Assembly: GCA_947570135.1 (NCBI GenBank)
Contig: CANOTP010000001.1
Location: 310,001 to 374,000, forward strand
DNA: 64,000 bases
Source: an uncultured Candidatus Melainabacteria bacterium
GTDB taxonomy: Bacteria > Cyanobacteriota > Vampirovibrionia > Gastranaerophilales > Gastranaerophilaceae
Direction of reading: 5' to 3'
Shown in pieces: positions 18,885 to 62,487 of the stretch. The notes beneath the pieces are model-generated. The model was given only the letters and a program-made list of their open reading frames with translations. It was not told where the DNA came from and ran no database searches. Made by a program: the position numbers and the translations under genes. The first letter of the stretch is position 1; the number at the start of each line of letters is the position of its first letter.

Positions 18885-19571
18885 ATGAAAAAGCAGGCTA
18901 CAGTTAAAATTTCGGGGGGGGGTAGCTTTTCTTGCTTAGCGCGGAGCGCATTCTCATTAGCTGAAATATTAATTACCCTCGGTATAATCGGGGTTGTTGC
19001 GGCACTTACTATCCCAAATCTTATTACATCTCATCAAAAAGAATCACTGTTACTAAACTTCAAAAGGCAATATCTGTATTAAATCAGGCTTCTAAACTTG
19101 CGAATGAAGAGGGGTTAGGAGTACCTCCTTCCGATATGTCAAATGCAGAATATTTTAAAACCTATTGGGCTCCGTATTTAAAGGCTTCATATTGTAATAT
19201 TTACAGTGCTTGCGGGTATAAATCAAACTGTCCTTTTGTTTTCCCCGGCGGGTATCCTTATCAGGCTGAACTGATAACTCCTAATATTGCTGTTTTTTTT
19301 AACAATGGACGGGTTCTTTGTCAGTATACGTGATTTTAATACCGAGAGTTCTGCTGTAATTGTAGATATAAACGGTTCTTCTCCTCCAAACAGATTTGAA
19401 CGAGATGTTTTCTTTTTAGTTAAGGAAAATGATGCTGTATATCCTGAATGTAAAGATTCTCCAAATGCTTATGTTAATGCGTATTGTCGTGGTGCTAACG
19501 ACGGCAGATGTTGTGCCGAGCGTATACGTCGTGCAGGGTGGAAGATTGATAAATCATATCCGTGGAAATAG
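18885..19571 (+). pseudogene. Pilin-like gene with a G-tract leader and two frameshifts
   Basis: It starts with the shared leader ATG at 18885 behind an AAAGGAG-type site (AAAAGGAGAGAAAAGT). The leader contains nine Gs (18914-18922) and runs in frame into SAFSLAEILITLGIIGVVAALTIPNL. The frame then breaks. Near 19047 two extra bases shift it; the other frame continues TVTKLQKAISVLNQASKLAN to about 19333. At the T8 run (19292-19299) a single extra T returns it to the first frame, giving TMDGFFVSIRDF, SPPNRFERDVFFL and the usual end CCAERIRRAGWKIDKSYPWK. The two indels add up to three bases. Either the gene is inactive or these are sequence errors; the T8 run is a typical error site, but the two-base insertion is not. 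Confidence 0.8.
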
Positions 19572-23861: not shown

Positions 23862-23917
23862 GGCTAAAGGGGTAAATTATAGGTTATCAAACAGATAAAA
23901 GGAAAAGGAGAAAAAGT

Positions 23918-23965
23918 ATGAAAAAGCAGACTACAGTTAGAATTTCGGGGGGGGTAACTTTTTAA
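23918..23965 (+). CDS. Leader reading frame upstream of the second G-tract pilin
   Basis: AAAAGGAGAAAAAGT precedes an ATG that encodes MKKQTTVRISGGVTF and then TAA. It contains eight Gs (23947-23954). With one more G the frame would skip this stop and run without interruption into the pilin frame that contains position 24022 and 24142. The same leader opens the pilin loci at 18885 and 61646. It may be a leader peptide, the out-of-phase start of the pilin, or a frameshift site. Confidence 0.55.
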   Translation: MKKQTTVRISGGVTF

Positions 23966-24120
23966 GCTCCTTTCGGAATAGTTTTGCAAGTAAGGTCACT
24001 CTGAACATCAGCTCTTCTTGTTTGCGAGGAACGAGGATTACAAGGGAGGGTACCCCTTGTGGGTGGATTCAGGGTCTATCCATGTATATGCCGGCCCTAA
24101 CGGGACAAACCAACATTTAC

Positions 24121-24147
24121 AGATTCCGTGTCAAGCACGGAATGACA
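24121..24147. repeat. Palindromic repeat unit inside a pilin reading frame
   Basis: AGATTCCGTG, TCAAG and CACGGAATGACA: a hairpin of the form AGATTCnGnn-TCAAG-nnCnGAATGACA. The same unit occurs at 25949-25975 and, with another centre, at 61788-61813. A left-hand element GTCACTCTGAAC lies at 23996 here and at 61719 in the third pilin. Confidence 0.7.
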
Positions 24148-24798
24148 AAAAGATTTGCATTTACCCTTGCAGAAGTATTAATAACCCTCGGGATTATTGG
24201 GATTGTTGCTGCGATAACTATCCCGGGTCTTATTACAAGGTGTCACAGGCAACGTGTTGAAACCAAACTCAAAAAGTTCTCTTCTGTAATGAATCAAGCT
24301 GTCAGAATGTCTGTTGCAGAACATGATGATATAGTATTTGATACTGTTTCCGCTGAAAATATGGGAAATCGCGGAGCTATTCTTCGCGAGTGGTATGATG
24401 AGAATTTGTTGAAATACCTCAAAGCCGAATATACGAAAGATTATCCTGTTAAAAGTCCGTATGTTAAGGTAATGTTACTTGACGGCAGCGGTTTTGTTTC
24501 GTATATTTCAAACAGCGGAACAGTGATTCATTTCTTCTATTGTGTGGATGTTAATGATAAATCTTGCAAGCTTGAAAGTTATGACGGGCGAAATACTTTT
24601 CTGTTTAATTATTACCCTGCTAAAAAGGCTGTATTACCTGTCGGTTACAATATTCCTGATATTAATACGCTAAAAAACAATTCTAAATCTATGGCTGCAG
24701 GATGTTACAATAAGAGCTATCCGAACAGGCATTATTGTACTGCTTTAATCGCTCGTAACGGGTGGAAAATTCCGAGTGATTATCCTTGGATTAAATAA
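24142..24798 (+). CDS. Type IV pilin-like protein behind a G8 leader
   Basis: From the ATG at 24142 the product starts MTKRFAFTLAEVLITLGIIGI, a compact prepilin signal with the hydrophobic helix. It ends CTALIARNGWKIPSDYPWIK, the common C-terminal end of this set. It contains several cysteines (CYNKSYPNRHYC). The frame stays open upstream to 24022 and beyond, through a palindromic repeat (24121-24147) that supplies the ATG at 24142. The only strong ribosome site is at the leader ATG 23918, which is one base out of frame because of the eight-G tract. The true start is therefore uncertain: 24142, or 23918 after slippage. It lies downstream of mazG-folE2 and could share their transcript. Confidence 0.8.
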   Translation: MTKRFAFTLAEVLITLGIIGIVAAITIPGLITRCHRQRVETKLKKFSSVMNQAVRMSVAEHDDIVFDTVSAENMGNRGAILREWYDENLLKYLKAEYTKDYPVKSPYVKVMLLDGSGFVSYISNSGTVIHFFYCVDVNDKSCKLESYDGRNTFLFNYYPAKKAVLPVGYNIPDINTLKNNSKSMAAGCYNKSYPNRHYCTALIARNGWKIPSDYPWIK

Positions 24799-61645: not shown

Positions 61646-61708
61646 ATGAAAAATCAAGCTATGACTAGTATCTCGGGAGGGGTAACTTTTACGGCTCAGG
61701 ATTGGTAG
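61646..61708 (+). CDS. Leader reading frame upstream of the third G-tract pilin
   Basis: AAAGGAGGAAAAGT gives a perfect ribosome site for an ATG encoding MKNQAMTSISGGVTFTAQDW and then TAG. It contains GGGAGGGG (61675-61682), the counterpart of the G8/G9 tracts. One extra base in the tract would place it in frame with the pilin, as at 23918. The plain frame overlaps the pilin frame at 61702. Confidence 0.5.
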   Translation: MKNQAMTSISGGVTFTAQDW

Positions 61709-62487
61709 GAATTTTTCGTCACTCTGAACTTGATTCAGAGTCTATCCATGCCAATAAAAACCCCTTACTGGAAGAATCGACATTGATAGATTCTGACGTA
61801 CGTCAGAATGACAGAAAATTTGCATTTACCCTTGCAGAAGTATTAATTACCCTAGGTATAATCGGTGTTGTTGCAGCGATGACTATTCCGAATTTAATGA
61901 ATACATATAAAGCTAAGCGTTTACAGACTCAGTTTTTGAAAACTTATTCTGTAGTTCAACAAGCATTTAAGCAAATGGAAGCGGATGATGTGTCTTTAGA
62001 TCCTTCAACTTATGACAGGCATGAAAATCCTTTTTATAATATTTTTAAACAATATTTTAAAGGGGTTACGTATTGTAAGTCCTCCAGTAAGGCTTGTTAC
62101 AGCTTGCAAGATGTTCAGGGTGGTTATAAAAATTTGACGGGCAATAGTAAACTTGCAAGTACTTATTTTGATGATTGTCAGTTTGTATTGCCGGATGGTA
62201 CATTGATAAATATTGATAGTCCATATATTCCAGGGGTAAGCCGAGTATGGGTTATGCCGGATATAAACGGTTATAATAATCCACCTAATCGCTTAGGATA
62301 TGATCTTTTTGTATTTGAGTTTAAGGATGGCGAACTGAGAACAATGGGCAGCGAAGGAACAATGTATTCAGATATGGATAAGTATTGTTCATTAACAAGT
62401 TCTGAGGCTTTAAACGGTATGGCTTGTTCTCATAAAGCAAAAACAGATACAGATTATTTTAAATGGGTTGTAAAAAACGTTAAATAA
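61702..62487 (+). CDS. Type IV pilin-like protein behind a GGGAGGGG leader
   Basis: The frame contains KFAFTLAEVLITLGIIGVVA and AMTIPNLMNTYKAKRLQTQF, then NNPPNRLGYDLFVFEF. Several cysteines occur. Upstream of the prepilin motif the only possible start in frame is the TTG at 61702, which has no proper ribosome site; there is no in-frame ATG before the helix. About 40 codons between TTG and the motif come from a palindromic repeat (RHSELDSESI at one end, IDSDVRQNDRK at the other). Translation most likely begins at the leader ATG 61646 with a change of frame, or the gene is switched off. It ends FKWVVKNVK and overlaps the PHP gene by eight bases. Confidence 0.75.
   Translation: MVGIFRHSELDSESIHANKNPLLEESTLIDSDVRQNDRKFAFTLAEVLITLGIIGVVAAMTIPNLMNTYKAKRLQTQFLKTYSVVQQAFKQMEADDVSLDPSTYDRHENPFYNIFKQYFKGVTYCKSSSKACYSLQDVQGGYKNLTGNSKLASTYFDDCQFVLPDGTLINIDSPYIPGVSRVWVMPDINGYNNPPNRLGYDLFVFEFKDGELRTMGSEGTMYSDMDKYCSLTSSEALNGMACSHKAKTDTDYFKWVVKNVK
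61718..61813. repeat. Palindromic repeat pair inserted in a pilin reading frame
   Basis: The left unit GTCACTCTGAACTTGATTCA(GAG) folds as CTCTGAA-CTTGA-TTCAGAG. The right unit (61788-61813) is AGATTC, TGACGTACGTCA and GAATGACA with a perfect 18-base palindrome. The two are separated by about 45 bases and are translated in the pilin frame. The same left and right elements flank the insertion in the pilin at 24142. Confidence 0.7.

Follow-up and report, generated by a model that had tools for sequence, protein, structure and literature searches.

The pilin gene behind the short leader at 23918 is, with a probability that we put at about 0.6, one of a large family of phase-variable genes whose reading frame is set by slipped-strand changes in a run of Gs, and together these genes probably allow surface filaments to be switched on and off on a very large scale. 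The locus lies on the plus strand of the window, by which we mean the whole stretch of 64,000 nucleotides that was analysed (C1:310001-374000 of the source genome, a 1.90 Mb assembly of 16 contigs labelled G000, from a gut bacterium belonging to the non-photosynthetic cyanobacterial line). Directly established are the cassette family, the frames, the translation across the junction, the selection on the pilins and the differences in tract length between loci and between species.

The 23918 leader consists, in this order, of an AGGAG ribosome-binding site (23906-23910), an ATG that opens a stretch of 29 nt (23918-23946; MKKQTTVRIS...), a run of eight Gs (23947-23954) that would be the switch, its in-frame length being one G away, and TAACTTTT. 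The frame of this ATG encodes MKKQTTVRISGGVTF and is then closed by a TAA (23963-23965), much as an earlier note on this DNA had described it. The pilin frame is at -1 to that of the leader: a TAG shuts it upstream of the tract (read from the sequence), and beyond the tract it is open, as the same note had claimed, as far as the stop at 24796-24798. It runs through a 68-codon extension (23955-24159) into the prepilin cleavage and methylation motif (24142-24219, an N_methyl match that includes an in-frame ATG at 24142) and the pilin body, which extends from that ATG to 24798 and matches N_methyl and DUF6613 of Pfam. The N_methyl score is just above its cut-off (21.3 bits vs 21.2) and TIGR02532 gives 19.9 against 16.3; by its prepilin motif the product would be a type IV pilin-like protein, with a DUF6613 body and a predicted role in a filament. 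A prepilin peptidase (PF06750, E 2e-36) is encoded in the genome. The named relatives of the N-terminal part of the pilin are Candidatus Gastranaerophilus and other Gastranaerophilales or Melainabacteria records, and one record labelled Fusobacterium and another labelled just 'Bacterium' are found among them. The ATG at 24142, which had been thought weakly served, is not preceded by a good ribosome site and stands at the end of a palindromic dispersed repeat, GATTCCGTGTCAAGCACGGAATGA, inserted in the extension at 24122-24145 and belonging to a family with eight exact matches in the genome. This repeat, of the form GATTCCGTGTC-n-CACGGAATGA, lies in frame and directly before the prepilin motif in at least five pilins (the one in the window and those at C3:77780, C4:107624, C4:128987 and C2:167880 of G000), and a repeat of mobile type is thereby now part of the predicted N-terminal extension. 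Moreover, the prepilin motif is present twice in the pilins L061, L111, L116, L118, L119 and L299, its two copies being joined by a repeat-encoded stretch (FTLAEGATHVTLLP...FGFTLAEVLITLG), which looks as if another repeat were inserted in frame within the motif.

The leader cassette is common to about 40 loci of the 1.9 Mb genome, nearly all of which precede a type IV-like prepilin gene and are out of frame with it. The exact number depends on the search pattern: ten copies when at most three mismatches are allowed, 33 when the pattern is loosened and 37-39 when the tract core is used. In the 34 copies that were aligned, conservation extends from the ribosome site, whose AGGAG is kept, to TAACTTTT and GCTCCT; further upstream the sequences are not conserved. 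About 41 runs of at least eight Gs occur in the genome and all but six are inside such leaders, which is more than chance. The genome has 121 N_methyl matches, in itself a very large number for 1.9 Mb, and 38 of them could be assigned to a G-run leader. Across the genus, 46 genomes were searched and 20 matched the tract core, some of them by a weak single match; reading the loci individually confirmed leader-type loci in at least ten other species, each with its own version of the leader and with runs of G8-G12. In viral contigs the core pattern was absent, without a single copy. Elsewhere in the genus, large surface-type proteins bear a G8-G12 run within the signal peptide (GGGVTLKALS...), some of them in frame and some out of it (L077 in G011, L221 in G066, L222-L223 in G007, L233-L234 in G059, L202 in G029 and L199 in G014).

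Translation across the junction between tract and pilin was assessed on the 43 loci with at least 25 codons between the tract and the prepilin motif, long extensions that are often built of inserted palindromic repeats. Over their 2313 extension codons there is one stop in the pilin frame vs 412 in the other two frames; the single exception, in L080, probably belongs to a decayed or mis-assigned locus, and at none of the 43 loci is another frame free of stops. Among the short-extension loci, 50 of 51 have no in-frame Met after the tract. An extension that is open just in the pilin frame, together with this want of a Met, means that reading of the pilins begins at the leader ATG and, consequently, that the out-of-frame copies need a change of frame at the tract. 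Loss of the open frame between tract and pilin was looked for in relatives and none was found. The same data bear on the view that the arrangement is an artefact or a product of decay, the G-run being miscalled, the genes dead or the pilins started internally, for instance at 24142. An in-frame ATG is indeed present there, a few loci are decayed (L001, L030 and L117) and several contigs end at a leader; however, interrupted runs of the same total length keep the offset, the assemblies of eleven species agree, and both the junction results and the selection on the pilin bodies (below) speak against it. We consider this view very improbable for the 23918 locus, and as a general account it is disproved by the junction stop-codon test. 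An internal start as the general rule is ruled out by that test and by the missing Met of the short loci, and a homopolymer miscall by the interrupted runs of equal length and the agreement of many assemblies. Contigs often end at or inside a G-run leader (C1, C2, C3, C5 and C15 of G000, and many contigs of G014); the cause may be the repeat itself or reads of mixed tract length.

The out-of-frame pilins are evidently under constraint. For pilins that are out of frame both here and in G026, reciprocal best pairs show 72-83% identity, dS of about 1-2 and omega of about 0.1-0.2, i.e. purifying selection; the single usable pair of plain pilins gave 0.17, and the median of other genes was 0.07. 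Since these pilins are unreadable as they stand, such selection implies that they are read on other occasions or in some other way.

All three phases occur among the loci whose runs are uninterrupted, 120 in eleven species: 7 are in frame, 82 need one G more (-1) and 31 need one G less. Shuffling tract lengths among the loci within each species gives means of 19 in frame and 66 at -1, and leader length and tract length are thus coupled (P<5e-5, a value that is too strong because related leader copies are not independent). The -1 offset is common to leaders of 28, 29, 30, 31, 50 and 71 nt with runs from G8 to G12. Tract length is typical of a species (G8 here and mostly G8 in G026; G9 in G001, G068 and G014; 9-11 in G007, 10-11 in G029 and 11-12 in G034), and the runs before prepilin genes span G7-G12 overall, so that the G8 is not fixed across relatives. 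Orthologues can be unlike in their tracts, as are L038 (G9, in frame) and L088 (G8), or L306 (G11) and L295 (G9), and so can two copies with one leader, L031 (G8) and L035 (G9), both of which are contig ends. These genes show three marks of a slipped-strand locus: a surface-protein gene with a simple repeat near the 5' end of its coding sequence, a repeat length that sets the frame, and a length that varies between related copies.

In the mechanism that we favour, a shared 5' cassette of ribosome site, ATG, about ten codons and a G-run stands in front of many different type IV-like prepilin genes, and the gain or loss of a G during copying of the run would change the frame. With the run one G off, as in most copies including that at 23918, translation would stop after about 15 codons and yield no prepilin; with the right run length it would produce a fusion of leader, extension and prepilin, and the prepilin peptidase would cut this fusion immediately ahead of the F-T-L-A-E motif. 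If some 40 loci are mostly off, each cell would show few of the many pilins at once, and the excess of the -1 state might arise from a tendency of the runs to lose one base from the in-frame length. We infer, then, a slip that takes place in the DNA and is heritable, cells that switch and a role for the pilins at the surface. The earlier note had proposed either phase variation or programmed -1 frameshifting. The first of these has gained from the leaders found throughout the genus, the three phases, the tract differences and the G-runs of other surface proteins, and dedicated -1 frameshifting has become the less likely. Slipped-strand variation is favoured because it is the simplest account of the three phases, the changes in length, the surface proteins, the selection and the strand rule described below.

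Recoding is nevertheless a serious, if rather unlikely, alternative. The DNA would stay out of frame, and a low level of pilin would be made in every cell through ribosomes that slip by -1 on G GGG GGG or through an RNA polymerase that adds or drops a G. Uninterrupted copies do have the slippery heptamer G GGG GGG in the zero frame (it is lost in the GGGCGGGG and GGGAGGGG copies), the excess at -1 holds across leader lengths, and the constraint on pilins out of frame in both of two species is as strong as that on the single plain-pilin pair for which it was measured. This resembles programmed -1 frameshifting of the class known from dnaX and insertion sequences (PMC3711429), with a slippery heptamer in the leader frame and the product, in most copies, in the -1 frame; it is unlike that class in that the offset varies, no common stimulator was found and the homopolymer length differs between orthologues. 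No downstream RNA structure common to the family was detected (mean z -0.1, 26 loci), a result that removes a downstream hairpin as a shared stimulator. The 31 loci offset in the other direction include most of the full-length G014 set and several have intact, well-preserved pilins, in-frame copies exist, and the coupling of lengths may partly reflect the common descent of the leader copies. A universal -1 programmed frameshift is ruled out by the mixed offsets in G014, G034, G009 and others. There are, however, two observations that phase variation explains incompletely and recoding explains better. The in-frame state (7/120) is much rarer than free switching would give, the lengths being coupled towards -1. 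Moreover, although the interrupted runs L025, L030 and L021 precede decayed pilins, four others that should not slip (L034, L048, the locus at 61.6 kb and L098) have intact pilins behind them. The out-of-frame condition could even be the working state, with about 40 pilins here and many more in the genus made by slips of the ribosome or RNA polymerase, and with leader and tract length co-evolving to remain one base off; this we regard as unlikely.

If slipped-strand switching does operate, it may be slow, since a run of eight Gs falls below the threshold of nine used for poly-G in a survey of Neisseria (PMC5953494) and the MutS and MutL families are both present in the genome. Their presence also rules out lost mismatch repair as the cause.

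The position of the leaders relative to the two DNA strands is strikingly uniform. Of the pilins with a G-run leader, 37 of 38 are on the strand with positive GC skew (37:1), as against 23 of 75 plain pilins (23:52; Fisher 8e-13). In G026, G007, G029 and G034, stretches with minus-strand leaders have mostly negative skew and the others positive skew, and in G026 the rule is without exception at third positions. Judging from the skew, the G-rich strand is presumably the leading strand, which would put most plain pilins on the lagging one (52, against 23 leading). Almost every stretch read from contigs C1-C10 of G000 (L132-L145) has the given strand as its G-rich one, the start of C2 excepted, and this would be unlikely for randomly oriented contigs. 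The near-exclusive placement on the G-rich strand points to a process linked to replication; slippage at the level of RNA gives no reason for it. The leaders have also evolved separately from the genes that they precede. Of 13 orthologous pilin pairs, 11 have leaders that each resemble a paralogue from the same genome more than they resemble one another, sometimes by a wide margin (the leader of L007, for example, is at a distance of 2 from a paralogue vs 44 from its G026 orthologue), so the cassettes are homogenised within a genome, separately from the pilin bodies, and the strand rule suggests that an exchange linked to replication may be responsible.

In Neisseria, silent pilS copies feed the expressed pilE by recombination. 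Perhaps the out-of-frame pilins are a similar silent archive, donors to a few expressed loci with the leader as the anchor for recombination, and both the homogenised leaders and the uniform orientation to replication are in keeping with this. We nonetheless think it improbable, as each copy has its own ribosome site, ATG and full-length body with its own orthologue elsewhere, and silent copies would need neither the ribosome site and ATG nor an open extension frame.

Phase-variable pili whose switching depends on such repeats are known from other bacteria. The closest case is that of the sortase-dependent pilus genes bbr_0113 and bbr_1889 of Bifidobacterium breve UCC2003, in which replication slippage joins the frames (Penno et al. 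2022, PMC9187656); these pili are mostly off in culture, and in-frame tracts are enriched in the mouse gut (PMC9187656). There, as here, a short upstream ORF has the sole good start and is followed by a G-tract, with the pilin body beyond it out of frame, but the system comprises two sortase-pilus operons of a Gram-positive bacterium, whereas ours has about 40 scattered type IV-like prepilin genes, one exchanged leader and a strand rule. On/off switching by repeats that shift the frame is also found in Neisseria, in the multi-copy opa genes with a CTCTT pentamer (about 4-12 copies) in the region encoding the leader peptide (PMC3960869) and in the pilus gene pilC, which has a homopolymer of 9-20 and encodes, in two copies, a pilus-associated protein (PMC5953494); here, by contrast, the pilins themselves bear the run. 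In pil1 of Streptococcus gallolyticus, a change of repeat length in a short leader ORF sets pilus expression, most cells being weakly piliated (PMC3894217), but that leader acts on a transcription terminator and ours would be fused in frame to the pilin. No report of phase variation, or of a frame switch in pilins, turned up for gut Melainabacteria or Gastranaerophilales when we searched the open literature, a search that does not cover most subscription papers. The kind of system is thus known; new are the size of the family, with one cassette in about 40 copies, the prepilins as its targets, the exchange of leaders and the strand rule. If phase variation is indeed the explanation, about a third of the 121 prepilin-type genes would be under one G-run switch, a larger repertoire than that of opa or of the bifidobacterial pilus switch. 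Standard annotation would call most of these pilin genes broken, or would misplace their start codon.

Two other leaders lie in the window, both likewise on the plus strand. The one at 18885-18922 ends in a G9 run (18914-18922) and is in frame with its prepilin motif. In this respect it is the in-frame counterpart of the 23918 locus that it had been taken for, but its pilin body (18923-19571) is twice broken in frame, near 19036, within an A-run, and near 19330. The third leader, at 61646-61682, had been missed by the earlier note; its interrupted run, GGGAGGGG (61675-61682), has the -1 offset and is followed by an open pilin frame of 267 codons (61684-62487).
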